From the NCBI GenBank assembly GCA_021791895.1, contig JAJYVS010000014.1:1-64000 (forward strand): 64,000 nucleotides of DNA. Direction: 5' to 3'. Each line of letters opens with the position of its first letter. Position 1 is the stretch's first letter. Position numbers and translations under genes: made by a program. Positions 1-50,355 of this stretch are shown here, one piece after another. Below the pieces are notes generated by a model. It did not search any database, was not told where the DNA came from, and worked only from the letters and a program-made list of their open reading frames with translations. The stretch comes from Actinomycetes bacterium. GTDB lineage: Bacteria; Actinomycetota; Acidimicrobiia; Acidimicrobiales; RAAP-2.

Positions 1-1280
1 GCCGGGGGGTCGTCCCTGACGGCCGGCGGCTCCCGGGGGCCGGGGCCCTCTACGCCCTCTACGGCTGGTTCGGCGAGAACCTGGTCTCCATCTCCCTGGC
101 CCGGGCGGCGGCGCTGGTCGCCGCCGGCTGGCCCCAGGCCGAGGTCAAGGCGGCGGCCGAGGAGTCGGTGCCCGAGCTGGCGGCGTTGGTCGCCCCGTTC
201 GCACCGGCCGTCCTGCACGCTCACCGGGAGGCCGGCCGGCGCCTGGTGCTGGCCACCACCACCCCCGAGGACCTGGTCGCCCCGCTGGCCCAGGCGGTCG
301 GCTTCGACGAGGTGATCGCCACCCGCTACGCGGCGAACGGCGGCCGCTACACCGGACGGGTGGACGGGGGGTTCGTGTGGGGACCGGGGAAGCTGGCCGC
401 GGTCCGGCGGTGGGCCAAGGCCGCCGGGATCGATCTCGGGTCCTCCCACGCCTACACCGACAGCATCTACGACGCCCCGTTGCTCATGAGCGTGGGCCAC
501 CCCCACGCCCTCAACCCCGACCCCCGGCTCCACGCCCTGGCGCTGGCCCGGCGCTGGCCGGTCGAGCACTGGGACCGCCCGCCCGGCGTGCCCTCGATCG
601 TCGGGCTGGAGCCCTACCACCTCCTGCGCCAGCTGGTGCGCCGCTCGAGCTTCCCCTACGCCCGGTTCGACATCGCCGGGACCGACTCGGTCCCCCGCGC
701 CGGCGGGGTCATCCTGGCGGCCAACCACCGCAGCTACTTCGACGCCGTGGCGCTCGCCCTCGTCGCCCGGGACCTCGACCGTCCGGTCCGCTTCCTGGCC
801 AAGCAGGAGCTCTTCTCGGTCGGGGTGGCCGGCTGGGTGCTGCGGGCCATCGGGGGGATCCCGGTCGACCGGGCCAGCCGGTCGAGGGCCCCCCTCGACG
901 CCGCCGAGGCGTCGCTGCGGGCCGGGGAGGTGGTGGTCATCCTGCCCGAGGGGACCATCCCGAGGGGCGAGGCCGCCCGCGACCCGGTGCTGCACGGCCG
1001 GACCGGAGTGGCCCGGCTGGCCGCCGCCACCGGGGCCCCGGTGGTGCCGGTGGGCCTGTGGGGCACCGAGCGGGTGTGGCCCCGGGAGGCCCGGTTCCCC
1101 CAGCTGGTGGGGATCCACGACGTCTCGGTGCGGGTCGGGTCGGCGGTCCCGCTCGGCCTGGCCGACCCGGCGAGCGCCACCGAGACGATCATGGCCGCCA
1201 TTGCGTCGCTCATCCCCGCCGCCGAGCGGCCGGCCGGCGGTGCGGTGGCCACCGGGACCGATGCCCGCTTCGAACCGTGA
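1..1280 (+). CDS. HAD-IB phosphatase / PlsC acyltransferase fusion (5' partial)
   Basis: The reading frame is open from base 3 with no start codon, so the N-terminus lies upstream of the window. The first visible part is a HAD subfamily IB domain: motif II-like LATTT, a KLAAVRRW lysine motif and the acidic motif YTDSIYDAPLL; the nucleophile Asp loop would be upstream. The C-terminal half is a PlsC/LPLAT acyltransferase with the H-x4-D signature NHRSYFD and the substrate motif PEGTIPRG. Such fusions are thought to dephosphorylate and acylate a glycerolipid intermediate at the membrane; the substrate is not deducible. The TGA stop overlaps the GTG of murT (GTGA). The same two activities recur in the operon at 3354-9578. 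Confidence 0.9.
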   Translation, partial: RGVVPDGRRLPGAGALYALYGWFGENLVSISLARAAALVAAGWPQAEVKAAAEESVPELAALVAPFAPAVLHAHREAGRRLVLATTTPEDLVAPLAQAVGFDEVIATRYAANGGRYTGRVDGGFVWGPGKLAAVRRWAKAAGIDLGSSHAYTDSIYDAPLLMSVGHPHALNPDPRLHALALARRWPVEHWDRPPGVPSIVGLEPYHLLRQLVRRSSFPYARFDIAGTDSVPRAGGVILAANHRSYFDAVALALVARDLDRPVRFLAKQELFSVGVAGWVLRAIGGIPVDRASRSRAPLDAAEASLRAGEVVVILPEGTIPRGEAARDPVLHGRTGVARLAAATGAPVVPVGLWGTERVWPREARFPQLVGIHDVSVRVGSAVPLGLADPASATETIMAAIASLIPAAERPAGGAVATGTDARFEP

Positions 1281-2527
1281 GGCTGCGCACCCGTCTCGGT
1301 GCCGGCGTGGCCGGCGCGCTGAACGGGGTGTCCCGCCGCCTCGGGCTCGGTCGGGGGACGGTCCTCGGCGGCCGGGCCGGCATGGCCATCGCCCCCGGCG
1401 CCCTGGCCGAGCTGGCGGCAGGCCGCCTCGTGGCCCTGGTGAGCGGGACCAACGGCAAGACGACGACGACGGCGTTGTTGGCCGCGGCGCTCGAGGTCGG
1501 CGGGCGGCGCGTCGTCACCAACTCCACCGGGTCCAACATGCCCGCCGGTCACTTCGCCGCGCTGGCCCAAGGCGCAGGAGGGACCCCGGTCGTCCTCGAG
1601 GTCGACGAGGGCTACCTGCCCGGGAGCGTCGAGACCCTGGAGCCGAAGGTGGTCGTCCTCCTCAACCTCTCGCGCGACCAGCTCGACCGGAGCAACGAGG
1701 TCCGCATGGTGGCCGGGCGATGGCGCCGGGCGCTGGCCGGGTCCAGGGCGACCGTCGTCGCCAACGCCGACGACCCCCTCGTCGTCTACGGGGCCGAGCT
1801 GGCCGGATCGCTGCTCTGGGTCGCCGGCGGGGCTCGGTGGCGTGCCGATGCCGCCGGCTGCCCGGCCTGCGGGGGGCGGATCGAGTACTCGGTCGACTCG
1901 TGGTCCTGTCGCTGCGGGTTCACCCGGCCCCGACCGGAGGTCTCGGCGGTCGAGGAGGCGGGGACGACCACGGCGGTCTTCGCCGACGGCCGGCGGCTGC
2001 CGGTCACCCTCGCCATCCCCGGCGCGTTCAACCGCCGCAACGCGCTGATGGCCATGGCGGCGGCGGGGGCCCTCGGCGTGCCGGCTGAGGTCGCCCTGGC
2101 GGCGATGGGTCGGATCGAGGGGGTGGCCGGGCGGTTCTCGTTGCGCCGGGTCCAGGGGGTCTTGACCCGGGTGCTCCTGGCCAAGAACCCGGCCGGCTGG
2201 GAGGAGCTGCTCGACGTGGTCGCCCCGGGGACCGGGCCGGTGGTGGTGGCGATCAACGCCCGGATCGCCGACGGGCGGGACCCCTCGTGGCTGTGGGACG
2301 TGCCCTTCGAACGGCTCGCCGGGCGACCGGTGGTCGCCACCGGGGAGCGCAGCGCAGACGTGTCGGTCCGGCTCCACTACGCCGGGGTCGAGCACCAGCG
2401 GGTCGGCGACCCGGCCCAGGCGGTCGTGCTGGCCGGCCGGCTGGGCGCCGCCGGTGCCGACGGAGAGGCGGTCGAGTTCATCGGCAACTACACCGCGTTC
2501 CACGACCTGCTACGCGTGGGCGCCTGA
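1277..2527 (+). CDS. murT: MurT, lipid II isoglutaminyl synthase Mur-ligase subunit
   Basis: A Mur-ligase-fold protein of 416 aa, the usual MurT length. Visible are the ATP-binding P-loop SGTNGKTTTT, a central zinc ribbon (CPACGGRIEY...CRCGF) that distinguishes MurT from MurC-F, and a C-terminal DUF1727-type domain. With GatD it amidates the D-Glu of lipid II to D-isoglutamine, in the cytoplasm at the membrane. The start is the GTG overlapping the stop of the preceding gene. In the same frame an artefactual extension reaches far upstream, but homology-like sequence begins only here. gatD follows after 7 bp, so the two are almost certainly cotranscribed. Confidence 0.93.
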   Translation: MRLRTRLGAGVAGALNGVSRRLGLGRGTVLGGRAGMAIAPGALAELAAGRLVALVSGTNGKTTTTALLAAALEVGGRRVVTNSTGSNMPAGHFAALAQGAGGTPVVLEVDEGYLPGSVETLEPKVVVLLNLSRDQLDRSNEVRMVAGRWRRALAGSRATVVANADDPLVVYGAELAGSLLWVAGGARWRADAAGCPACGGRIEYSVDSWSCRCGFTRPRPEVSAVEEAGTTTAVFADGRRLPVTLAIPGAFNRRNALMAMAAAGALGVPAEVALAAMGRIEGVAGRFSLRRVQGVLTRVLLAKNPAGWEELLDVVAPGTGPVVVAINARIADGRDPSWLWDVPFERLAGRPVVATGERSADVSVRLHYAGVEHQRVGDPAQAVVLAGRLGAAGADGEAVEFIGNYTAFHDLLRVGA

Positions 2528-2534
2528 GGCGCCG

Positions 2535-3275
2535 ATGGCTCGTTCGGCGCTCCGGATCGTCGTGGTCTACCCGGACCTCCTCGGCACCTACGGCGACGGG
2601 GGCAACGGGGTGATCCTGGCCAGCCGGGCCCGACGCCGGGGCTTCGAGGTCGACCTCGTCGAGGCGGCGAGCGACCGCCCCCTGCCCCGGGCCGACCTCT
2701 ACACGCTGGGCGGCGGTGAGGACGCCCCCCAGGTCCAGGCGGCCGAGCGCCTGGGCGCCGAGGGGGTGCTGGCCGCGGCGGTCGCCGAGGGCGCGGCGGT
2801 GCTGGCGGTCTGCGCCGGCTACCAGATCCTCGGCAAGAGCTTCCCGACCGCCGAGGGGACCGCGTCGCCCGGCCTCGGTCTGTTCGAGGTGGCGACGGAG
2901 AAGGGCACCGGGGCCCGGGCGGTCGGCGAGATCGTGGTCGAGGCGGCCGTCCCGACGGTGGGTCTGCTCACCGGGTTCGAGAACCACGGCGGGGTGAGCG
3001 TGCGGGGTCCGTCGGCCGGCGCCCTCGGCACGCTGCGTCGGGGGTCGGGCAACGGTGACGGGACCGACGGGGTCTGGAGCGGTCGGCTGGTCGGCACCTA
3101 CCTCCACGGCCCGGTCCTGGCCCGCAACCCCGCTTTGGCCGATGTCCTGTTGTCCTGGGCCACCGGCCGCGACGACCTGGCCCCCCTCGACGATCGGCGG
3201 GAGGAGGCGTTGCGGGCCGAGCGCCTCGAGGCCGCCCTCAGCTCCCCGCTCTCGATGCTGCGTCGTCGGCGCTGA
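2535..3275 (+). CDS. gatD: GatD, lipid II isoglutaminyl synthase glutaminase subunit
   Basis: A CobQ/CobB-type class I glutamine amidotransferase of 246 aa that supplies ammonia to MurT. The nucleophile Cys lies in AVCAGYQILG and the catalytic His in GTYLHGPVLARNP, both typical of GatD. The ATG at 2535 is chosen because the protein then starts at MARSALRIVVVYPDLLGTYGD, matching the family N-terminus; the upstream in-frame extension lies inside murT. The C-terminal codons run into an 18-bp tandem repeat that carries the stop. Confidence 0.93.
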   Translation: MARSALRIVVVYPDLLGTYGDGGNGVILASRARRRGFEVDLVEAASDRPLPRADLYTLGGGEDAPQVQAAERLGAEGVLAAAVAEGAAVLAVCAGYQILGKSFPTAEGTASPGLGLFEVATEKGTGARAVGEIVVEAAVPTVGLLTGFENHGGVSVRGPSAGALGTLRRGSGNGDGTDGVWSGRLVGTYLHGPVLARNPALADVLLSWATGRDDLAPLDDRREEALRAERLEAALSSPLSMLRRRR

Positions 3276-3353: not shown

Positions 3354-4373
3354 TCAGATCCGCGACGGGGCGCGTCGGCGCGCTCGGCGCGTTCGGGGGC
3401 GGCGGCGTCCGGCCAGCTTGGCCAGCTTCACGTCGGGCCAGGCCGGTTCGTCACGCCTCGGGCCGGCGGCACCGAGGGCCCAGGCCCGACGCCACGGTGC
3501 GACCTCGGGCCCGCGCAGGGCGAGTGCGCCGTCGTCGGGCCGGCGACGGGCGGTCCACCAGTCCGAGGCGATCTCGGCGGCCAAGAGCGCGACCGCCCGC
3601 TCGATGCGGACCGCGAAGCGCCGGGCGTCCTCGTCGGGCTCGGCCCGGAGCGGTGGGCCGAAGACCACCGTCACCTCCCCCCGCCGCAGCTGCCGGGCCC
3701 GGTTCTCGGTGCCCGAGCCGCCCGGACGCCCCGCGTCGTCCCGCTTGGGCAGGACGTGGCGGGTGCCGTGCAGGTAGACCGGGACCACCGGGGCACCGGC
3801 CCGCACCGCCAGGTAGGCGGCGCCCCCCCGGAACTCCTGGGCCCAGCCGTCGGGCGAGCGGCCCCCCTCGGGGAAGAGCACCAGGTTCCACCCCTCGCCG
3901 AGCAGCTCGGTGGCGACCTCGGCCGACCGGCGGTTGACCCGGGACCGCTCGATCGGGATGGCCGCCAAGGTGAGCGACCACAGGGCCGACTTCCAGGGCC
4001 GGTCGAAGAAGTAGTCGGCCGCCGCCCCGACCACGGCGCGGTGGCGGAAGCGAGCCGGCAACGCGGTGAGGAGGAGCGGGGTGTCGAGGTGGCTCGCGTG
4101 GTTGGCGGCGAAGACGACCGGCGCCTCGAGGTGGGCCAGGTACTCCTCGCCCCGGACCGTGGTCGGGGCGAGGACTCGGGCGAGCGGTCTGGTCACGTTG
4201 TCGAGCACCATCGCCCGCACGAGGCGGGCCGGGTAGCGCCGCGACCACTCGTGGTCGTAGTCGAGCCCGACGTGGCGCTCCGGCGCCGGCCGGTCGACGC
4301 CGGCCGGCCAGTCGGGCGCTCCGAGCGGGAACCGGAGCCGGCCGAGGGCTGCCAGGGTGTCGGGCAGCTTCAT
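3354..4373 (-). CDS. PlsC-family 1-acylglycerol-3-phosphate-type acyltransferase
   Basis: A lysophospholipid acyltransferase-like protein of 339 aa. Motif I is NHASHLD (H-x4-D) and the substrate-binding motif is FPEGGRSPDG. The C-terminus is Arg-rich. The chosen start is MKLPDTL at 4373, whose ATG overlaps the TGA of the upstream LarA-like gene (ATGA); a longer in-frame extension is Arg/Pro-rich shadow sequence. It is the last gene of a four-gene operon (reductase-HAD, Zn-dehydrogenase, LarA-like, acyltransferase), so it probably acylates the product of that pathway. The acyl donor and acceptor are unknown. Confidence 0.88.
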   Translation of the reverse strand: MKLPDTLAALGRLRFPLGAPDWPAGVDRPAPERHVGLDYDHEWSRRYPARLVRAMVLDNVTRPLARVLAPTTVRGEEYLAHLEAPVVFAANHASHLDTPLLLTALPARFRHRAVVGAAADYFFDRPWKSALWSLTLAAIPIERSRVNRRSAEVATELLGEGWNLVLFPEGGRSPDGWAQEFRGGAAYLAVRAGAPVVPVYLHGTRHVLPKRDDAGRPGGSGTENRARQLRRGEVTVVFGPPLRAEPDEDARRFAVRIERAVALLAAEIASDWWTARRRPDDGALALRGPEVAPWRRAWALGAAGPRRDEPAWPDVKLAKLAGRRRPRTRRARRRAPSRI

Positions 4374-5959
4374 TGCACGTCGGCCAGAAGCAGCGGGGGC
4401 ACGTGCATGTGGGTGATGGTCGGGGACCGACCGACGACGTCGCTCGCGATCTCCAGGGCGTCGGCCAGCGTCGAGGCGGGGGAGAAGCCCATCCGCCGGA
4501 CCGCCTTGGGGTCGCCGCCGAGGACGATGACCCGGCCGAGGTGCTCGAGGGCGTGCGCGCACCAGTACCACATGTAGAAGGGGTGCACGCCGTGGTAGGC
4601 GTGGCCGGTCCGGTAGAGGTGCACGTACCAGGGGTCGTTGGCGAAGGACTCCTCGTAGAGCTTGTGCATCTCGGCCGGGTCGGTCGTCTCGGTCAGCACC
4701 TGCTCGTAGAAGTCGATGTAGCTCGGGTGGAAGGCCGGGTCGAAGTGGGGCTTGGTCGGGTGCTGCATGATGAGCACCCCGCCCTCGCGCACGAGGGGCT
4801 TGCCCCGGTACAGGTTGAAGAAGTACCCGAGGCCGAGGCAGGCGACGAGGATCGGGTTCATGATCGAGTTCACGTTGTAGGGGCAGATGTAGGGGAGGCC
4901 CATCGTGAGCACATCGGTCTGCCCGGTGACGGCGACCCCCTGCTGACGCCAGACGTGCTCCAAGGCCAGGTCGTGGACCGCCTCCACCTCCCCGGCCTGC
5001 ACCGAGGTCATCTGGTGGGGGGCCTTGATGGAGTGGAAGATCTGTCTCGACAGCTTCCCCGGCGCGGCGTCGAGGGCGGCCGCGGTGGCGGCGTAGGTGG
5101 CCCGGTCACGCAGCGACCACTCCCACTCGCGACGCTGCAGGAAGGCGAACTGGGACGGGAAGGTGTCGGTGTTGAGGGTGGTCTCGATCTGGAAGACCTT
5201 GACCCCGCTCGCCGCGATGTGCCGGCCCATGCGCCAGTTGGAGGAGTGCAGCTCCGAGGACGGGGCGTGCATGAACGACCGGGAGTGGCGCATCGTCGTC
5301 GGGTTGTGGTGGTGGCGCAAGCTGCGGTAGCTGGCGAGGCCGGTGGCGACGCTCTTGTGGCCCCCGTCCATGGCCACGAGGCAGATGTTCACGTAGACGA
5401 CGAGGTCGCTCTCGGCCGCCCGCCGGTTGATCTCGACCTCCTCGCCCTCGGCGGTCCGGCCGAGATCGGTCAGGTTGCTCGGATCCTCGGCGTCGTGCTG
5501 GGTGAGGAGGCCCCGGGGCGCGAAGGCCTCGTAGATGCGGTCGCCGAGCGCGTGGCGCAGCTCGGCTTCGGTCATGCGACGGTGCAGAGCCAGCGCGGCG
5601 ATGAGCATCACGTCGTCCACGCCGGCCGCCGCGGCGAGGTCGAGCACCTGCTCGATCACCATCTGGCGGATGTCGGGGGCCTGCATCGGCGGGAGCGGGA
5701 GGGAGACGTCGTCGAAGCAGATCGTGAGGCGCATGCCCGGGGTCATGAGCGCCCGGAGCGGCTCGGAGCCGCCCACCGGGTGCTCGAGCGCCTCGGCGAT
5801 GGCGCCGATCGGGTCGGGGAGCGGTTCGAGGGGCTCGGGCGCGTAGAGCACCCTCGTGCCTTCGGGGAACCGCTCGAGGGTGAAGCCCTCCCCGTTCCAC
5901 AGGAGCGTGGGCGGCGTCGAGCCGTCCACCTCCAGCACGAACCCCGGTCGTGGGGTCAT
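4370..5959 (-). CDS. LarA-like (DUF2088, nickel-pincer racemase superfamily) protein
   Basis: A 529-aa protein resembling the lactate racemase LarA family. An LALHRRMT motif near residue 126 matches the catalytic-His region. GGHKSVATGLASYRSL near residues 199-214 followed by HHHN near 216 resembles the Lys and His region that binds the nickel-pincer nucleotide in LarA. The protein is longer than typical LarA (about 425 aa), with an extended His- and aromatic-rich C-terminus. LarA homologues act on alpha-hydroxy acids; this substrate is unknown. No larB, larC or larE is in the window, so cofactor synthesis must be encoded elsewhere if it is used. Start and stop overlap both neighbours by 4 bp, tying it to a lipid-type operon. 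Confidence 0.8.
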   Translation of the reverse strand: MTPRPGFVLEVDGSTPPTLLWNGEGFTLERFPEGTRVLYAPEPLEPLPDPIGAIAEALEHPVGGSEPLRALMTPGMRLTICFDDVSLPLPPMQAPDIRQMVIEQVLDLAAAAGVDDVMLIAALALHRRMTEAELRHALGDRIYEAFAPRGLLTQHDAEDPSNLTDLGRTAEGEEVEINRRAAESDLVVYVNICLVAMDGGHKSVATGLASYRSLRHHHNPTTMRHSRSFMHAPSSELHSSNWRMGRHIAASGVKVFQIETTLNTDTFPSQFAFLQRREWEWSLRDRATYAATAAALDAAPGKLSRQIFHSIKAPHQMTSVQAGEVEAVHDLALEHVWRQQGVAVTGQTDVLTMGLPYICPYNVNSIMNPILVACLGLGYFFNLYRGKPLVREGGVLIMQHPTKPHFDPAFHPSYIDFYEQVLTETTDPAEMHKLYEESFANDPWYVHLYRTGHAYHGVHPFYMWYWCAHALEHLGRVIVLGGDPKAVRRMGFSPASTLADALEIASDVVGRSPTITHMHVPPLLLADVQ

Positions 5960-7206
5960 CGCCGACCTCCTCGGGCGCCCGACCGCAGGTCGAACGCGAT
6001 CTTCACCGCTCCGCGGCGGCCGGCCGCCCCGGCGTGGGCGACGGCCTCCTCGAAGCGCTCCAGCGGATAGGTGGCCGAGACCAGTCGGCCCGTCCTCATG
6101 GCGGCGGCCGCCTCCAAGGCCACCTCGAAGGTGGCCCTCGTCCCGTGCTCGAGGACCTCGGTCCCGTAGGCGTAGGTCCCGGCGAGGCGGACCTCGCGGT
6201 GCCAGAGCGGGGCCAGGTCCACGTGGACCCGGCCCGGCATCCCGACCAGGACCACGCTGCCGCGCGGCCGGACGACGTCGAGGGACGCCGCGATGGACTC
6301 GGAGGAGCCGACGCAGTCGAACACCACGTCGGCCCCGCCAGTCAGCCTGGTTCCCGCGGCGCCGCCGACCACCATGGAGCGGGCGTGGCGACGGACCGCC
6401 CGGCCGAGCTGCTCGGGCGGGACGACGGCGTTCGCCCCCAGCTCCTCGGCCAGCCGGCGCTGGTTGGCGTAGCGGGCCCCGACCGCGAGGACCCGCGGCA
6501 AGGGCAGCGCGCCCTGGCCGGTCAGGTGGCCGACGGCGGCCACGACGGCGAGCCCGAGGGTCCCGGCACCGACCACGGCGACCACGTCGTCGGCGCCGAC
6601 CCCCGCGTGCAGCACCGCGTGCAGCGCGCAGGCCAGGGGCTCGACGGTCACCGCGTCGGTGTCGGACAGCCCGTCGTCGACCGGGTAGAGCTGGCTCTCG
6701 TGGGCAACCAGGCCGGCGGCGGACCAGCCGCCCCCGGTGTCGGCGCAGAAGCCGGTCTGGATGCCCGGGGCGAGGTGCCCGAAGCCGGTGTGCTCGCAGT
6801 CGCCGGTGTTGCCGACCCGGCACGAGGCGCACGGCGTGAGCCCGCGGGCGACGCAGCCCAACACCGGCTGGATCACCACCCGGGCCCCGGCCGCGAGCGG
6901 GGTCCCGCCGGCCCCGGTGGCGGCCGACTCGACCACGCCGAGGACCTCGTGGCCGGGGACGAAGGGGAAGCTCACCAGGGGTTCGAAGTACCGCGAGCTG
7001 CGGCCGTCGATGGTCGCCAGATCCGAACCGCAGATCCCCGAGAGGAGCGGGGTGACCCGGTGCCACCCCTCGCCCGGGAGCGCCGGAGGCTCGGTGTCGA
7101 CGAGGCGCAGGGGCGCCACCTTGGCGCCCCGCCCCGACCCGAGTCCCGAGGCGAGCCGGGACGCCGCGAACCGCGGGAGGCTCCGCTCGAAGACGAGCGC
7201 CTTCAC
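5956..7206 (-). CDS. Zinc-dependent alcohol dehydrogenase family protein
   Basis: A medium-chain dehydrogenase of 416 aa. The N-terminal GroES-like catalytic domain carries ICGSD (zinc Cys) and PGHEVLGVVE (zinc His/Glu). A CASCRVGNTGDC cluster is a structural-zinc-like loop. The Rossmann segment VVGAGTLGLAVV binds NAD(P). It is somewhat longer than a typical MDR (about 350 aa) because of an N-terminal extension. The GTG at 7206 overlaps the upstream TGA. Between a fatty acyl-CoA reductase and a LarA-like protein it plausibly oxidises or reduces a hydroxylated or aldehyde intermediate; that role is inferred from context. Confidence 0.87.
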   Translation of the reverse strand: MKALVFERSLPRFAASRLASGLGSGRGAKVAPLRLVDTEPPALPGEGWHRVTPLLSGICGSDLATIDGRSSRYFEPLVSFPFVPGHEVLGVVESAATGAGGTPLAAGARVVIQPVLGCVARGLTPCASCRVGNTGDCEHTGFGHLAPGIQTGFCADTGGGWSAAGLVAHESQLYPVDDGLSDTDAVTVEPLACALHAVLHAGVGADDVVAVVGAGTLGLAVVAAVGHLTGQGALPLPRVLAVGARYANQRRLAEELGANAVVPPEQLGRAVRRHARSMVVGGAAGTRLTGGADVVFDCVGSSESIAASLDVVRPRGSVVLVGMPGRVHVDLAPLWHREVRLAGTYAYGTEVLEHGTRATFEVALEAAAAMRTGRLVSATYPLERFEEAVAHAGAAGRRGAVKIAFDLRSGARGGRR

Positions 7207-9578
7207 GGCCCGACGCTCCCCGCCCCGGTCGTGAGCGACCGGTGTTCGAGCCCGCCCAACGGGAGGAGGCGGTCGGTCCCCCCGGCGGCGCGGCTCCACT
7301 GCTCGACGAGCCACCCCCGCCGTCGGGCGATGGCCGCCAGGCGGGCGTCGGGGTTGACGACGACCGGGAAGCCGACGGCTTCGAGCATGGCGAGGTCGCT
7401 CGAGGAGTCGGCGTAGGCGACCGACTCGGCCAGCGACAGGCCGTGCTCGAGCGTGTAGCGCTCCAGCATGAGGGCGCGGGCCTCGCCGATGGGGGAGAGC
7501 TCGGCCAGGTGGCCGGTGAAGATCCCGTCGCGCTCGGACAAGCTCGCGCAGACCACGTCGTCGAACAGCGGGCGCAGCGGTTCGACCACGACGTCGAGGG
7601 CGCCGGTGATGAGCAGCGTGCGGTGTCCGAGCCGCCGGTGGTGCCGGACCCGGGCGATGCCGGCCGGGAACGCCCGGGGGAGGAGGAATTCGTGGAAGAG
7701 GTCCCAGGCGTCGCGCGCGATCGCCTCCACCGGGGCGCCCTCGTAGCGGCGGTAGAAGTAGCGGAGGAAGTCGCCCCGGTCCCGCCGGTCGAGGCTCAGC
7801 CACCGGGGGGCCGACGCCAGCAGGTCGGCCACGAAGCCGACCCGCCGGTCGGGCTCCATGTGCCGGCTGGCCAGCCAGGCGTAGGAGTCGACGACGTTCG
7901 AGGCGATCAGGGTGTGCTCGAGGTCGAACACCGCGAGGTGCCGGTCGGGGGAGAGCACTGCGCTGCGCAGCCGGGTTTGGCGGTCGGTGCCCCCGGGCCG
8001 GCCGGGGGAGGTACGGACCCGGCCCCGTTCGACCACCGAGGGCAGGTGGACCTCGGACACGTAGTGGGCCCAGTCGATGACGGCGGGGTCGAAGCAGAAC
8101 CGCTGGCGGTCCTCGGGGTCCAGGCTCTCGAACAGGCCGAGCAGCCGGTCGATCCGGTACCGGGCCTCGGTCTCGGTGTAGGCGCCGTAGAGCTCGGCGT
8201 AGCCGAGGGCCCGCTCGGCCAGGGTCTGGCGGTCCTCCAGCTTGGCCGCCCACTCGGCCTGCTTGCGGCGGAACGGCATGAGACGCAGGCCCCGCTCGGC
8301 GACGTCCATGAGCTTGACGGCCTGCTGCAGCTGGCGCTGGACCCGGCCGCGGCCGGGGAACGACCACTCCGGGAGGGAGATCGGCTGGCCCCGGTCGTCG
8401 TAGAGGGGGTGGCGATCGAACCAGTCCTTGATGAGGTGCACGAGCTGGCCGTAGGCGAGCGGGTTCCGCACCCCCGAAGCCACGTGGTACACGGCGGGGC
8501 CGTCCTCGGGCCCGCGGGCGGCGACTGCGATGATCGCCGCCACCACTAGGTCGACCGGGATGACGTCGGTGATCCCCTCGGGGACACCGGGGAACTCCCG
8601 CAGGAGGCCCCGGGCGAAGGAGAGGATGATCGGCTCGGCCATCCGGAAGCCGCGGATCCAGCCCGGCCGAGGTTCGGCCAGCGCCGACTCGATGATCGAG
8701 GGCCGCACGATGGTGAGCGGCACCGGGACCTCCCCCTGCGGGCCGTGCCGGGCGACCAGCGCCCGCTCGCCCAGCGCCTTGGTGAAGGCGTAGGCGTCGG
8801 GCCACCCGAGCGCCTTGGCCCGGGCCGAACCGGCCGCGACGAGCTGGCGCCGGACCCAGTCCTCCCGGAGGCGTTCGGCCCGGGCGGCGAGGAGGTGGGT
8901 GCCCGAGGCGCCCTGCTCGGCGTGGGCCCGTCGGGCGAATTCGCGCAGGTGCTCGGGTTGTCGGGAAGCGTCCTCCAGGTCGTCCCGGAGCCGCCGGGCG
9001 CTCGCCACCTCGGCGCTCCAGTCGATGGCCAGGCTGAATCGGTCCTCGGAGAGGAGCCGTTCGGCGGTCTCGCCCTGGTGGGCGCCGGCCACATAGGCCG
9101 TCGACACCGCGATCAGGTGGGCGGGCCGGCCTCCGGCGGCGGCGCTGGCGGCGACGGCCGCGGCCACCCGGGACGGGCCGAGCAGGTTGACCTCCACCGC
9201 GTGGTCGAGCGGGGCGTCGAAGCTGACCGTGGCGGCCGAGTGGATGACGACGTCACAGGCTGCGAGCTCGGCCCGGCCGGCCTCGTCCAAACCGAGGCCG
9301 TCGCTCGAGACGTCCCCGGCGACCCCTCGCAGGCGGTCGGCGACCTGGTGGTCGAACCGCCCGCCGAGTTCGTCGCGCAACCGGGCGAAGCAGTCGTTGC
9401 GGAGGATCTCCCGTTCCACCCGGGTCGCGACATCGTGGCGCCGACCAGGCCGGACGAGCGCGACGACCTGGGCGTCGGGGATGGTACGCAGGATCCGCTC
9501 GATGAGGGCCGTGCCCAAGAAGCCGGTCCCCCCGGTCACGAAGAAGCGCCGTCCGGCGAGGTCGTCGGCGATGCCCAT
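7203..9578 (-). CDS. Fatty acyl-CoA reductase (NAD_binding_4) fused to HAD-IB phosphatase
   Basis: A 791-aa two-domain protein. Residues about 1-500 are an extended short-chain reductase of the male-sterility/fatty acyl-CoA reductase type, with cofactor motif VTGGTGFLGTAL and active-site YAFTK. Residues about 550-790 are a HAD-IB hydrolase with FDLEHTLIAS (nucleophile Asp; the second acid is Glu), the LLITGALD segment and AYADSSSDLAML. It could reduce an acyl-CoA and dephosphorylate a phospho-intermediate. It is the first gene of the minus-strand operon; its ATG lies 9 bp from the nearer of two palindromic operators shared with the divergent tetR gene. Confidence 0.9.
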   Translation of the reverse strand: MGIADDLAGRRFFVTGGTGFLGTALIERILRTIPDAQVVALVRPGRRHDVATRVEREILRNDCFARLRDELGGRFDHQVADRLRGVAGDVSSDGLGLDEAGRAELAACDVVIHSAATVSFDAPLDHAVEVNLLGPSRVAAAVAASAAAGGRPAHLIAVSTAYVAGAHQGETAERLLSEDRFSLAIDWSAEVASARRLRDDLEDASRQPEHLREFARRAHAEQGASGTHLLAARAERLREDWVRRQLVAAGSARAKALGWPDAYAFTKALGERALVARHGPQGEVPVPLTIVRPSIIESALAEPRPGWIRGFRMAEPIILSFARGLLREFPGVPEGITDVIPVDLVVAAIIAVAARGPEDGPAVYHVASGVRNPLAYGQLVHLIKDWFDRHPLYDDRGQPISLPEWSFPGRGRVQRQLQQAVKLMDVAERGLRLMPFRRKQAEWAAKLEDRQTLAERALGYAELYGAYTETEARYRIDRLLGLFESLDPEDRQRFCFDPAVIDWAHYVSEVHLPSVVERGRVRTSPGRPGGTDRQTRLRSAVLSPDRHLAVFDLEHTLIASNVVDSYAWLASRHMEPDRRVGFVADLLASAPRWLSLDRRDRGDFLRYFYRRYEGAPVEAIARDAWDLFHEFLLPRAFPAGIARVRHHRRLGHRTLLITGALDVVVEPLRPLFDDVVCASLSERDGIFTGHLAELSPIGEARALMLERYTLEHGLSLAESVAYADSSSDLAMLEAVGFPVVVNPDARLAAIARRRGWLVEQWSRAAGGTDRLLPLGGLEHRSLTTGAGSVGP

Positions 9579-9587
9579 CCCGGTTGT

Positions 9588-9601
9588 CTACCATTTGGTA
9601 G
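9588..9601. promoter_or_regulatory. Palindromic TetR-type operator, copy 1
   Basis: CTACCATTTGGTAG is a perfect inverted repeat (CTACCA-TT-TGGTAG) in the 46-bp divergent intergenic region. An identical copy starts 23 bp away. Its position upstream of the reductase-HAD start suggests repression by the adjacent TetR protein. Confidence 0.75.
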
Positions 9602-9610
9602 GGATTTTGT

Positions 9611-9624
9611 CTACCATTTGGTAG
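9611..9624. promoter_or_regulatory. Palindromic TetR-type operator, copy 2, abutting the tetR start
   Basis: A second exact CTACCATTTGGTAG palindrome ends one base before the GTG of the tetR gene. It contains TACCAT (9612-9617), which fits a TANNNT -10 element spaced 7 nt from the GTG, so transcription would start at the start codon. The operator and the core promoter then coincide, which suggests tight autorepression. Confidence 0.75.
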
Positions 9625-10218
9625 GTGGCCACCGGGACGTCTGATCGGATCCTCGACGCCGCGCTGGCATCCTTCGGGTCCCGCGGCTACGACACCACCT
9701 CCCTCGACGCCCTGGCCAAGCAGCTCGACATCCGCAAGCAGACGATCCTGTACTGGTTTCCTACCAAGGATGCCCTGCTCGGGGCCGTCATCGAGCGGAG
9801 CGCCACCGAACTCGCCGAGGCGTTCGAGGTGGGCCTCGAGGGCGCGGGCGAGGGCTGGGCCAAGGTGGAGGCGGTCGTCCGGGCGGTGTTCCGGCTGGCG
9901 TCCCGGCAGCCCGAGCTGCTCGCCCTGGTCCGCGAGGTCTCCCGACTCGGCCCGCCGGCGGCGACCAAGATGCTCGTGGTGCTCGACCCGCTCGTCCAGC
10001 GGGCCAGTGCGTTCCTCGAGGCCGAGATGGACGCCGGGCGGATGCGGCGCCACGATCCGAGACTCCTGCTCCTCGCGATCTACTCCACCGTGATCGGGAT
10101 GGTGACCGAGGTGGAGGTGCTGCGGGCGCTCGGCGAGGAGCCCACCGCCCGGTCGTTGGTTCGTCGGCGGGCCGACGTCCTCGGACTGTTGCGCTCGGCC
10201 CTTAAGACGGAGGCGTAG
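9625..10218 (+). CDS. TetR/AcrR family transcriptional regulator
   Basis: A 197-aa regulator with an N-terminal helix-turn-helix: SDRILDAALASFGSRGYDTT then LAKQLDIRKQTILYWFPTKD, the classic TetR recognition-helix pattern. The rest is a helical ligand-binding domain. The GTG start directly follows the second operator, leaving no room for a Shine-Dalgarno, so a leaderless mRNA is likely. It probably represses itself and the divergent lipid operon and responds to an acyl-type ligand; the ligand is a guess. The 3' end overlaps the convergent membrane protein gene by 17 bp. Confidence 0.9.
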   Translation: MATGTSDRILDAALASFGSRGYDTTSLDALAKQLDIRKQTILYWFPTKDALLGAVIERSATELAEAFEVGLEGAGEGWAKVEAVVRAVFRLASRQPELLALVREVSRLGPPAATKMLVVLDPLVQRASAFLEAEMDAGRMRRHDPRLLLLAIYSTVIGMVTEVEVLRALGEEPTARSLVRRRADVLGLLRSALKTEA

Positions 10219-38988: not shown

Positions 38989-40677
38989 TCACGGGAGGTA
39001 CCCGCGCGGGGTGACCATCCGTCCGGCCCGCAGGCGGGTCGTGGACGAACCGATCACGAGGCACGTGGTCATGTTGACCGCTGCGCACTCCAGCTGGCCA
39101 AGCGTGGTCACCCGCACCGCCTGGTCCGGGCGGCCGGCGTCGGTGACGACCCCGACCACGGTGTCGGGCCCACGGTGCTCGAGGAGGATCGAGCGGGTCC
39201 GCTCCAGTTGCCAGGTCCGGGTCCTCGAGCGCGGGTTGTAGACCACGACGACCAGGTCGCTCAGGGCCGCGGCCCGCACCCGGGCCTCGATCAGCTCCCA
39301 GGGGGTGAGGAGGTCCGACAGGCTGAGGGTGAGGAAGTCGTGGCCGAGGGGTGCGCCGAGCAGGGCCGCCGCCGACAACGCGGCGGTCACCCCGGGGACC
39401 ACGCGCACCTCGACGTCGCGCGCCGTCGCCTCGTCCAAGAGGTCGAGGGTGGGGGAGGCCATGGCGTAGACCCCGGCGTCGCCCGAGCACACGAGGGCGA
39501 CCCGGGCACCCCGGGCCGCGAGGTCGAGGGCCAGGCGGGCCCGTTCCAGCTCGCTCCCGATGGCGAACCGGTGGATCTGCTGGGACGGGGTCAACAGGTC
39601 CGAGCACTGCTCGACGTAGGCGTCCAGCCCCACCACGACCTGGGCGTGGCGGACCGCGGTCGCCGCCTCGGCGGTGCGCTGGGCGGCCGAGCCAGGACCG
39701 AGCCCGACGATGTGGAGCGACCCGGCCGGGCGGGCCCGTCTCGCCACTGCCACGGTGGTCCGGCCGGCGACGGTCTTGGCCACGACGAGCTCGGCGTCAT
39801 CTCCGGCCGCGGCCAGTGCCGCCGCCTCGGCCACCGAGCGGGTCCCGACCGCCGAGGCCACCACCTCGCTCGGGTTGGGGACCACGACGGTGTCGAGCTC
39901 GGCGGCCGGGAAGCTCCGGACCGCCAGGTCGAAGGCGTCGGCGACGGCCGAGACGGCGGGGTGCTCCGCCCGCCGGTCGATGGTGGCGACGGCGGCCAGC
40001 GAGCGAGCGGAGAGTCCCCCGGTCCCGAGGACGCCGCGCACCGCGTCGAGCGCGTCGGACGCCGTGGCGTCCGAGGTGGTCCCGAGGCCGACGACGAGGG
40101 AGGGCGGCCGCAGGACGACGGTGGCGTCGGCTTGCTCCCGCGCCCGGTCGGTGACGACGACCCGACCGGCCGGAGCCGGATCGGTCGTGCCGAGCAACGC
40201 GGTGATCGGTCCGGGGAGCGGCCAGCCGAGCTCGTTGTCGAGGGCGACCGGCCGCCCGGCGACCAGCGCCGCGGTGACCCCGGCCACGTCCCCCTCGGCC
40301 AGGAGGTCGGGGAGCAGGTCGAGGGCGGGGAGGTCGAGCCGGTCGGTCGCCGTCGTCACCACCGCCTGAGCGCCGAGGAGGCGCGCCACCTCGGTGGCCA
40401 GCGCGTTGGCACCCGCCCCGTGGCCGCCGAGGACCGAGACGGCGAAGGTCGCGGCGTCGTCCACGCACACGACCGCGGGATCCGACGCCTTGTCGCGGAG
40501 CAGCGGGGCGACCAGCCGGACGGTGGCCCCGAGAGCGAGCACCACCACGAAGCCGTCGACCTTCTCCCACCGGTCGGCCAGGACCTTGGCCGGGTCGCCG
40601 TGCGCGTGCTCGTAGGGGAGGCGTTCGGCCACCCGCCGGCCGGCCTCGGTGACCGAGATGGCGAGGACCCCGCTCAC
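38989..40677 (-). CDS. cbiG-cobJ: CbiG / CobJ fusion: cobalt-precorrin-5A hydrolase and precorrin-3B C17-methyltransferase
   Basis: A 562-aa bifunctional enzyme. Residues 1-about 320 are CbiG (LAISVTEAGRRVAERL, VLALGATVRLVAPLL, VSVLGGHGAGANALA, VVGLGTTSDATASDALDAV). Residues about 325-562 are the CobJ/CbiH methyltransferase (HIVGLGPGSAAQRTAEA, VVVGLDAYVEQ, LVCSGDAGVYAMASPTLDL). The GTG at 40677 overlaps the cobL stop (GTGA). It catalyses ring contraction and deacylation in corrin synthesis. The CbiG part is a marker of the cobalt-early (anaerobic) route. Confidence 0.94.
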   Translation of the reverse strand: MSGVLAISVTEAGRRVAERLPYEHAHGDPAKVLADRWEKVDGFVVVLALGATVRLVAPLLRDKASDPAVVCVDDAATFAVSVLGGHGAGANALATEVARLLGAQAVVTTATDRLDLPALDLLPDLLAEGDVAGVTAALVAGRPVALDNELGWPLPGPITALLGTTDPAPAGRVVVTDRAREQADATVVLRPPSLVVGLGTTSDATASDALDAVRGVLGTGGLSARSLAAVATIDRRAEHPAVSAVADAFDLAVRSFPAAELDTVVVPNPSEVVASAVGTRSVAEAAALAAAGDDAELVVAKTVAGRTTVAVARRARPAGSLHIVGLGPGSAAQRTAEAATAVRHAQVVVGLDAYVEQCSDLLTPSQQIHRFAIGSELERARLALDLAARGARVALVCSGDAGVYAMASPTLDLLDEATARDVEVRVVPGVTAALSAAALLGAPLGHDFLTLSLSDLLTPWELIEARVRAAALSDLVVVVYNPRSRTRTWQLERTRSILLEHRGPDTVVGVVTDAGRPDQAVRVTTLGQLECAAVNMTTCLVIGSSTTRLRAGRMVTPRGYLP

Positions 40678-41957
40678 CCCTCGGCGTCCTCTTCGGGTCC
40701 CCAGGCCACGAAGACCGGGTTGTTGGCGACCAGCCGCCAGGTGCCGTCGGGAAGTCGCTCGCCCCGATCGGCGTGGATCTGGAGCAGCCGGCCCAGGTGC
40801 CGGGCCCCTTCGAGCGCCCGGTCGAGGGAGGCGAAAGAGGCCACGACGCGGCCACCGGGGGTGAGCCGGCGGAGCACGGCCGAGAGGACCTCGATGCCCC
40901 CGCCGCCCACGAAGGCCCGGTCCGGTGGCGGCAGCTCGTCGAGGACCTCGGGTGCGGCCCCGGTGATCACGTGGATCCCGACGCCGGCGGCGGCGGCGTT
41001 GATGCCGATCCGTTCGGCCGACTCGGGGTCCGACTCGATGGCGAACACCGTGAGTCCCGGTGCGACCAGCGCGGACTCGATGGCCACGCTGCCGCTCCCC
41101 GCACCCACGTCGAAGAGCACGCCGCTCGTCGGGAGGCACAGTTTCCCGAGGATCACCGAGCGGGTCTCGGCCTTGGTGATCATGCCCTCGCGGTGCAGGT
41201 AGGTCGCGTCGGACCGTCCCCAGGCGAGCACCCGTTCGTTGCCCTTCTCCTCGGTGCCTGCCGCCCGCCACCCGGTGAGGGGGAGCCCGCCCGGGCCGAC
41301 CAGGACCACGACCGAGAGCGGGTCGAAACGCCCCGACGCCAGCTCGGCCAGGCCGAGCTCGCGGACCTCCTCGTCGGCCGAGCCCAGCCGGCTGCACACC
41401 GCGGCGAGATCGACCGTGCATCCGGCGTCGAGCAGGGCCGAGCCGAGGCGCTCGGGCGGGTGCTCGGGGGAGGTGAGGACCGCCACCTTCGCCGAGGTGC
41501 GGGCGGCCCGGACCGCCTCGGCGAGCGGACGGCCGTGGGCGGAGACGACCGTCGCGTCGTCCCAGGGGATCCCGAGCCGGGCGAACGCCACGGCCACCGA
41601 CGAGGCGGCCGGGAGCACGCGGAGCTGGTGGCGGTCGAGGGTGCGGAGCAGGGCGCGCACGATGCCGAAGAACCCCGGGTCGCCCGAGGCCAGCACGCAG
41701 ACCGGGCCGGCCCCGCCCGACAGCCGGGCCCGCAGGCGCCCGACGAGCTCGGCGGTGTCCGCCCTGATCTCCAGGGTCTCGACCTCGGAGCGGTCGGTCT
41801 CGTTCCAGTTGGCGAAGAGCGCCAGGTGGCGTCGTCCCCCGACGACCACCCGTGCCGCCCGCAGCGCCTCGAGCGCGTCGGGGCCGAGGAGCTCGAGCCG
41901 GTCGTCCGCCACCCCGATCACCGTCACGACGCCGTGGTCGGTGGCGTCCTCAGGCAC
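40674..41957 (-). CDS. cobL: CobL, precorrin-6Y C5,15-methyltransferase (CbiE-CbiT)
   Basis: A 427-aa bifunctional methylase/decarboxylase. The CbiE half (residues 1-about 215) has VIGVADDRLELLGPDALEAL and the GDPGFFGIVRALL motif. The CbiT half (about 235-427) has the SAM-binding VGAGSGSVAIES and RAFVGGGG. It methylates C5 and C15 and decarboxylates the C12 acetate. The GTG start overlaps cbiD by 8 bp. Confidence 0.94.
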   Translation of the reverse strand: MPEDATDHGVVTVIGVADDRLELLGPDALEALRAARVVVGGRRHLALFANWNETDRSEVETLEIRADTAELVGRLRARLSGGAGPVCVLASGDPGFFGIVRALLRTLDRHQLRVLPAASSVAVAFARLGIPWDDATVVSAHGRPLAEAVRAARTSAKVAVLTSPEHPPERLGSALLDAGCTVDLAAVCSRLGSADEEVRELGLAELASGRFDPLSVVVLVGPGGLPLTGWRAAGTEEKGNERVLAWGRSDATYLHREGMITKAETRSVILGKLCLPTSGVLFDVGAGSGSVAIESALVAPGLTVFAIESDPESAERIGINAAAAGVGIHVITGAAPEVLDELPPPDRAFVGGGGIEVLSAVLRRLTPGGRVVASFASLDRALEGARHLGRLLQIHADRGERLPDGTWRLVANNPVFVAWGPEEDAEG

Positions 41958-48920: not shown

Positions 48921-50288
48921 CTAGGAGAACGCCCGGTCCGACGCGGCGCAGGCGACGAAGCGCTCGGCCGCCGAGGGGTCACCGCCCAGGTGCACGTGCA
49001 GGTAGGTGGCGAGCAGGCGCGAGGTGGCCCAACCCTCGGTCCGGGTGCCGGAGCGCCCGACGAGCTCGAGCGCGCCGCCCGGGGGGTCGAGCGTCGAGTA
49101 GTGGTGCTCGTGGCCCCGCACGACCGTGCCCCGGGGCCCGATCGGGGTGTCGGCGCACAGGGTGGCCGTGCGGTAGCCGACGGTGACCCGGGAGCCGAGG
49201 GTGGCGGTGGCGGGGATGGCGCCGCACAGGGCGTGGCCGTCGAGGGAGCCGGCCAGCCAGAGCAGCCCGCCGCACTCGGCCCAGGTGGCGAGGCCGTCGC
49301 CGACCCGGTGGGCCACCTCGGCCCGCAGCGGGGCGTTGGCCTCGAGCTGCTCGGCGAAGACCTCGGGGAACCCGCCGCAGGCGTAGAGGCCCCGGACCCC
49401 GGCCGGCAGGGCGGGCTCGACGAGCGGGTCGAAGCCGACCAGCTCGGCCCCGGCCTCCTCCAGGCGCTCCAGGTTGTCGGGATAGGAGAAGGAGAAGGCC
49501 GGGCCGGCGACGACGGCGATCGGGACCGGCGTCGCCGAGGTGCGCTCGGCCGGAGGAACCGGGACGACCGGGACGGCCGGGGCGGCGCGGGCCAGCCGTT
49601 CGAGTGCCTCGAGGTCGACGCCGCGCCCGACCGCCTCGGCCAGGAGGTCGAGCGAGCCCGAGACCGCTGCCGGGTCCTCGACCACCGGCACCAGCCCGAG
49701 ATGGCGGTCCCGCCACGAGAGCGCCGGATCCCGCCGCAGCACCCCGAGCACCGGCACTTCGCCGGTGGCGAGCGCCTCGTTGAGGAGCGCCTCGTGGGTG
49801 TCGCTGCCCACCCGGTTCAAGACGACGCCGGCGAGCGGGCGGCCCCAGTTGGCGAGGAGGTGGTGGTGGTAGCCGTCGACGAGGGCCCGGACCGAGGCGC
49901 TCATCGAGGCGGCGTCCACCACCAGCACCACCGGGGCGTCGAGGAGGTGGGCGACCTCGGCCGTGCTCGCCTCCCCGGTCGACCCCACCCCGTCGAAGAG
50001 CCCCATCACCCCTTCGACCACCAGCACCTCGGCGCCGCTCGCCGCCTTGGCCGCGATGGGCGCCACGGCGTCGGGGCCGCACAGGAAGCTGTCGAGGTTT
50101 CGCCCGACCCTCCCGGTGGCCAGCTGGTGGTAGCCGGGGTCGATGAAGTCCGGCCCGACCTTGGCCGAGGCGACCCGCCGCCCCGCCCGGCGCCACGCGG
50201 CCATCAACCCGGTGGCGACGGTGGTCTTGCCCACCCCCGAGTGGGAGCCGGCGATGACGATCCGCGGCCCGAGCGTCGTGGTGCTCAC
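48921..50288 (-). CDS. cobB: CobB/CbiA, cobyrinate a,c-diamide synthase
   Basis: A 455-aa two-domain amidotransferase. The N-terminal dethiobiotin-synthetase-like ATP domain has IAGSHSGVGKTTVATG and VVEGVMGLFDG; the C-terminal class I GATase has LYACGGFPEVFAEQL and the nucleophile AECGGLLWLAGS. It amidates the a and c side chains from glutamine. The GTG at 50288 is chosen because homology begins at about VSTTTLGPRIVIAG; the longer frame is shadow. No riboswitch was found upstream. Confidence 0.95.
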   Translation of the reverse strand: MSTTTLGPRIVIAGSHSGVGKTTVATGLMAAWRRAGRRVASAKVGPDFIDPGYHQLATGRVGRNLDSFLCGPDAVAPIAAKAASGAEVLVVEGVMGLFDGVGSTGEASTAEVAHLLDAPVVLVVDAASMSASVRALVDGYHHHLLANWGRPLAGVVLNRVGSDTHEALLNEALATGEVPVLGVLRRDPALSWRDRHLGLVPVVEDPAAVSGSLDLLAEAVGRGVDLEALERLARAAPAVPVVPVPPAERTSATPVPIAVVAGPAFSFSYPDNLERLEEAGAELVGFDPLVEPALPAGVRGLYACGGFPEVFAEQLEANAPLRAEVAHRVGDGLATWAECGGLLWLAGSLDGHALCGAIPATATLGSRVTVGYRTATLCADTPIGPRGTVVRGHEHHYSTLDPPGGALELVGRSGTRTEGWATSRLLATYLHVHLGGDPSAAERFVACAASDRAFS

Positions 50289-50355
50289 CCCGGCCGCTCC
50301 GACATGGGCCCACGGTGCCACGGACCGGGCCGGGGCGTCGACCGGGCGGGGCCCG

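Follow-up and report, generated by a model that had tools for sequence, protein, structure and literature searches.

The operon and its genes

The stretch of DNA studied here, the first 64,000 nucleotides of contig JAJYVS010000014.1 (the window), carries on its minus strand a four-gene operon (3354-9578) in which a homologue of the lactate racemase LarA, hereafter LarAH, stands among genes of acyl-CoA reduction and glycerolipid acylation. Our analysis leads us to regard it, with considerable confidence, as a conserved glycerolipid operon linked to the nickel-pincer nucleotide (NPN) cofactor, whose product we leave unnamed. The genes overlap by 4 bp at each junction. The first encodes a fatty acyl-CoA reductase (FAR; NAD_binding_4/Sterile) fused to a HAD-IB phosphatase domain (FAR-HAD; 7203-9578, minus strand; NAD_binding_4 6e-54, HAD 1e-26). 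It is followed by a Zn-dependent medium-chain alcohol/polyol dehydrogenase (ADH; 5956-7206, minus strand, GTG start; ADH_N and ADH_zinc_N), by LarAH itself, a 529-residue member of the LarAH14/15/16 family (4370-5959, minus strand; Lar_N PF09861 1.4e-38 and a match to NF052592), and by a PlsC-type 1-acylglycerol-phosphate acyltransferase (3354-4373, minus strand; PlsC acyltransferase domain 1.6e-22). An initial annotation of the locus had given this strand, order and overlap; its coordinates are exact, and the Pfam domain calls that we made on the window proteins agree with it. The Rossmann glycines, the YxxxK motif and the HAD motifs of FAR-HAD are kept in relatives, HAD motif I being DxE in the window protein and in most of them. 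Nearly all relatives of the ADH, a protein similar to polyol dehydrogenases, retain the catalytic C59/H86/E87 and four structural cysteines, and the NHX4D and PEG motifs of PlsC are found in essentially all of 91 relatives.

A TetR-family regulator is encoded divergently (9625-10218, plus strand, GTG start; TetR_N 3e-12), and its gene adjoins the operon in many relatives and is missing in others. The 46-base gap between it and FAR-HAD contains two exact copies of the 12-mer TACCATTTGGTA, a near-perfect palindrome, at 9589-9600 and 9612-9623, 23 bp apart. A TetR gene with operators had been proposed for this operon, and both the regulator and the palindromes, which are putative operators, are indeed there. 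The 12-mer has three exact copies in the 2.83-Mb genome, two of them in this gap. In relatives, each of the 33 TetR/FAR intergenic regions examined likewise contains a palindrome of the TACC-N4-GGTA type. The third copy (C92:124833-124844; L200:6834) is embedded in a longer palindrome, GGATCCACTGTACCATTTGGTACAGTGGATCC, and has a different TetR gene and an SRPBCC-like gene as neighbours. We considered a wider regulon for the TetR protein of the operon, but this sole other exact copy, placed as it is within a longer palindrome next to another TetR gene, is probably not a target.

Conservation and co-occurrence

The order FAR-HAD, ADH, LarAH, PlsC, often with the TetR gene, is kept in nearly all of about 80 acidimicrobial loci where the contig reaches (the 80 closest loci come mainly from metagenome-assembled genomes, or MAGs, with Ferrithrix and Acidithrix as the isolates among them), and is found in many other actinobacterial families. 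Of 396 genomes of the phylum, 88 have both LarAH (family NF052592, fragments included) and FAR-HAD, and 299 have neither; LarAH alone is seen in four and FAR-HAD alone in five, several of these cases being incomplete genomes. Where a genome of the same family lacks one of the two, the other is missing too. In 79 of 84 genomes the two genes share a contig, with a spacing that mostly corresponds to the size of an ADH gene. The trees of the four proteins are congruent, with distances correlating at r 0.76-0.90 and 0 of 999 permutations as high, numbers that, like those of co-occurrence, are inflated by shared ancestry. LarAH is the slowest-evolving of the four proteins. The initial annotation had taken gene order across genomes as a measure of its proposal, and the four genes are co-conserved in relatives; gene-order conservation in about 80 loci, together with co-occurrence, rules out chance or misannotation as the source of the operon.

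A loose clustering of open reading frames in the operon neighbourhoods gave no further neighbour common to all families, save LarC in three loci. Among plasmids, the search returned a single distant LarA only, and the neighbourhoods of more distant LarA homologues (L137-L153) show no link to FAR or PlsC. Loci L137-L142 hold LarA homologues of a second subfamily, with about 40% identity to the window LarAH and a different neighbourhood; four of these loci share several flanking genes.

Fold and active site of the LarA homologue

LarAH matches NCBIfam NF052592 (LarAH14/15/16) with 882.6 bits over residues 7-529, the cut-off being 740. The LarAH14/15/16 groups were defined by Desguin et al. (2020; PMC7583248), and the group member tested there, a Frankia LarAH14, was negative in all seven racemase/epimerase assays. 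Our AlphaFold2 model of LarAH, with a predicted local distance difference test (pLDDT) score of 87.9, has as its best structure match the single-histidine LarA-like protein 9q3k (Z 40.5, 2.4 Å over 454 residues), and matches LarA itself (5huq) with Z 30.0. The residues that hold the cofactor in LarA are in part recognizable: K202 corresponds to the NPN-binding lysine K184 and H218 to the nickel-ligand histidine H200, both invariant in 103 of 103 core relatives, as is H126, the counterpart of the first catalytic histidine, H108. The motifs GGHKS and HHHN had been singled out at first sight as a nickel-pincer Lys/His region, and the alignment of K202 and H218 as well as the modelling against LarA structures bear this out, both the LarA fold and the Lys/His pincer site being present.

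The second catalytic histidine (LarA H174) is lost. Its position, residue 193, is a cysteine in the window protein, and among the 103 core relatives it is asparagine in 101, cysteine in one (L006) and serine in one (L007), the small clade of the window protein having Cys or Ser where nearly all relatives have Asn. The NPN-contacting arginine R75 of LarA is not kept either, the aligned residue being L87; the invariant R98, near L87, might replace it. The C-terminal sequence alignment between LarAH and LarA is weak, and the catalytic K298 could not be placed. From these residues, LarAH is most likely a true NPN enzyme that would carry out hydride chemistry without carbon inversion. If we extrapolate from the published LarA mechanism, a single base should make it feasible to form a ketone and re-reduce it on the same face, while inversion would be hard; the loss of H174 in every core relative fits the expectation for such a non-inverting reaction. 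Other hydride reactions were suggested by Desguin et al. for LarA homologues without the second histidine (PMC7583248), Gatreddi et al. proposed for related proteins a one-way racemase that uses one base (PMC12611868), and the role of these homologues is treated as an open question in both the 2020 and the 2025 papers.

Nickel-pincer cofactor genes

The genes for NPN synthesis are present in the window genome, with larC next to larB and larE also on their contig (C72), which rules out an organism without NPN and settles favourably a check on larB, larC and larE that had been suggested along with the initial annotation. In four relatives (L121, L122, L123 and L135), the operon has larE, larB and larC as its immediate neighbours. 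Among 35 genomes of the same class, larC was found in 16 of the 18 that carry the operon and in none of the 17 that lack it; judging from this distribution, the operon LarAH seems to be the chief or sole user of the nickel cofactor within the class.

A link to glycerolipids

In five loci of one actinobacterial family (f25), a gene for PlsY (PF02660, 7e-52) lies directly before FAR-HAD and PlsC is missing; extra genes (protoglobin, MOSC) can sit between ADH and LarAH in this version of the operon. The operon PlsY is the only PlsY in six of the nine f25 genomes searched. PlsY is the first glycerolipid acyltransferase and uses glycerol-3-phosphate (G3P), and since it takes the place of PlsC in these loci, the exchange suggests that PlsY and PlsC serve the same G3P acylation. 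The placement of a LarA-like protein in a lipid-type operon stands, as far as the link to acyl-CoA reduction and glycerolipid acylation goes. The hydroxylated or chiral lipid that had been imagined as its product is not supported, because the loose neighbour clustering brought out no hydroxylase, hydroxyacid dehydrogenase or hydroxy-acid gene as a conserved part of the operon and because the PlsY/PlsC exchange points to a G3P backbone.

The FAD enzyme AGPS has no gene in the window operon. The genome G041 carries the operon, one strong FAR and no AGPS-like protein, and every FAD-oxidase_C protein of G041 and G053 is either GlcD-like or a long fused form rather than AGPS; the idea that all carriers have AGPS is ruled out by G041, G053 and G051. 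The window genome does encode an AGPS-like FAD protein, away from the operon on contig C21 (L178:1038-2651), with AGPS as its best PDB match (2.8e-56), and G374 and G226 have one as well. For Rubrobacterales, mainly mixed ether/ester lipids are reported in the title of a paper cited in PMC11150832 (reference 28).

Other genes of the window

Converging with PlsC lie genes for a MurT ligase (377-2527, plus strand) and a GatD-type glutamine amidotransferase (2508-3275, plus strand), probably a lipid II amidation pair. Another protein, a HAD-PlsC fusion (168-1280, plus strand), has its 5' end cut by the contig start, its HAD match beginning only at profile position 88. The window also contains cobalamin synthesis genes, namely CbiG fused to a tetrapyrrole methylase (38989-41421, minus strand) and a CobB/CbiA-type protein (48921-50507, minus strand).

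Proposed pathway and alternatives

We tentatively propose, from gene content and residue conservation, that the product of the operon is a modified glycerolipid of the membrane, with a 1-O-alkyl (ether) G3P lipid as the likeliest case. In such a pathway, PlsC (or PlsY in the Rubrobacter-like genomes) would acylate G3P and the FAR would convert acyl-CoA to fatty alcohol. LarAH, perhaps together with the ADH, would transiently oxidize the C2 hydroxyl of the glycerol to a ketone with the single H126 as base; the ketone would allow the sn-1 acyl group to be exchanged for the fatty alcohol, and LarAH would then give the hydride back to the same face. The HAD domain would take off the phosphate where needed, and the TetR protein would repress the operon through the TACC-N4-GGTA sites. 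The exchange chemistry takes AGPS and hidden-redox enzymes as its models, and by that analogy LarAH could be an acyl/alkyl exchange enzyme, a role to which we give a low probability. The broader idea, that a single-histidine NPN enzyme forms the glycerol ether bond by a hidden redox step at C2, in a route that would be independent of AGPS, oxygen-tolerant and widespread in deep-branching actinobacteria, strikes us as a long shot of the same order; the NPN enzyme would then perhaps stand in for AGPS.

Several observations weigh against the ether-lipid proposal. In the window genome, G374 and G226, LarAH need not make the ether bond, given their AGPS-like protein, and in two MAGs that carry the operon (G263 and G294) we could find no larC. 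At the H174 position, the window LarAH departs from the usual Asn and has Cys. Co-occurrence is in part a matter of shared ancestry, and the connection to Rubrobacter depends on identities that we assume rather than compute, f25 being what we take to be a Rubrobacter-like family and G041 presumably a Rubrobacter. The roles of the ADH and of the HAD domain admit more than one explanation, and a similar set of genes would be expected if the FAR served another product, such as wax or free alcohol. What the sequences show is the operon and its conservation, the NPN genes, the kept and missing active-site residues and the tie to a G3P acyltransferase; the ether product and the reaction are inferred.

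The absence of the second histidine bears on two of the alternatives. The initial annotation supposed that LarAH, as a LarA-type protein, racemizes or epimerizes a 2-hydroxy acid, for instance a 2-hydroxyacyl chain, toward a hydroxylated or chiral lipid. The superfamily fold, with one catalytic histidine, the NPN lysine and the nickel ligand kept, and the one-base one-way racemase proposed for related proteins (PMC12611868) speak for this view; however, H174 is missing in the whole family, the Frankia member showed none of the activities tried (PMC7583248), neither a hydroxylase nor a hydroxyacid dehydrogenase came up as conserved in the operon, and PlsY ties the operon to a glycerol backbone. 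Simple alpha-hydroxy acid racemization is unlikely because the second catalytic histidine is replaced, and we regard the view as a whole as rather improbable. The same missing histidine makes it very unlikely that LarAH interconverts sn-glycerol-3-phosphate and sn-glycerol-1-phosphate via dihydroxyacetone phosphate and so fixes the stereochemistry of the backbone: the reaction is formally of the LarA type, a hydride leaving and returning to a secondary alcohol, and PlsY uses G3P, but inversion requires a base on each face.

A different possibility is that the substrate of LarAH is a small polar compound, a hydroxy acid or a polyol (glycerate and sugar acids are examples). This unit would end up as head group or backbone in a lipid whose acyl or alkyl chains come from FAR and PlsC. 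The resemblance of the ADH to polyol dehydrogenases is in line with it, and the nearest solved single-histidine relatives are tied by context to carbohydrate metabolism (PMC12611868); yet we found no sugar or glycerate gene that is kept in the operon across relatives, and the Frankia LarAH14 had no activity with any substrate offered to it (PMC7583248). We think this possibility unlikely. FAR and ADH suffice for a fatty alcohol, and related FAR genes serve wax ester synthesis, so FAR, ADH and PlsC could make fatty alcohols, wax esters or alkyl lipids with LarAH as an unrelated or ancillary protein. This is hard to reconcile with a LarAH that is the slowest-evolving of the four and almost never found without FAR-HAD, and we found no wax synthase among the conserved genes of the operon; the probability of this reading is small.

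The operon brings together two questions, the function of single-histidine LarA homologues and the synthesis of ether lipids in actinobacteria, and it supplies strains, genes and substrates with which both can be tested. To our knowledge, the route to ether lipids in Rubrobacter and other actinobacteria is not settled. If an NPN enzyme does act on a glycerolipid, the chemistry of this cofactor would extend past the racemization of small hydroxy acids, and if a single-histidine LarAH forms the ether bond, it would be the first NPN enzyme other than a racemase or epimerase.

Comparison with known systems

The operon has much in common with the AGPS pathway and the myxobacterial elb operon (PMC9131029), where FAR, a PlsC-type acyltransferase, a HAD phosphohydrolase and an NAD(P) oxidoreductase are likewise clustered. 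It differs in that it has no ElbD-type FAR-ACS-ACP-AT protein (ElbD domains: PMC9131029), its FAR being fused only to HAD, and in that it contains a LarA homologue instead of AGPS, AGPS-like proteins being absent from some carriers. For Rubrobacterales, Sinninghe Damste and colleagues reportedly put forward, in 2023, a putative 1-O-alkyl glycerol phosphate operon, which is possibly the same locus in Rubrobacter (FAR and PlsY).

With lactate racemase LarA (5huq) and its LarB/C/E partners, the system shares the fold, the residues H108, K184 and H200, and the NPN synthesis genes in the genome, whereas H174 and R75 are not kept and the operon is different. LarA_Bw and LarA_Sp (9q3j and 9q3k; PMC12611868) are closer, with the same fold, one catalytic histidine and the Asn at the H174 position that nearly all LarAH relatives have. 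They are nonetheless only 27% identical to LarAH, which has a loop before the NPN lysine that is four residues shorter and, in the window, Cys at the H174 position; their context is glycolysis, that of LarAH is lipid. The locus had initially been put forward as the best candidate for an undescribed system. This holds for the operon and for the function of its LarA homologue, of which we found no description in the literature searched, but not for the protein family, since LarAH14/15/16 (NF052592) is already on record and the window protein is a full-length match to it. To that family, which has no demonstrated activity in the literature searched, the operon described here adds a genomic context, cofactor genes and a link to lipids.

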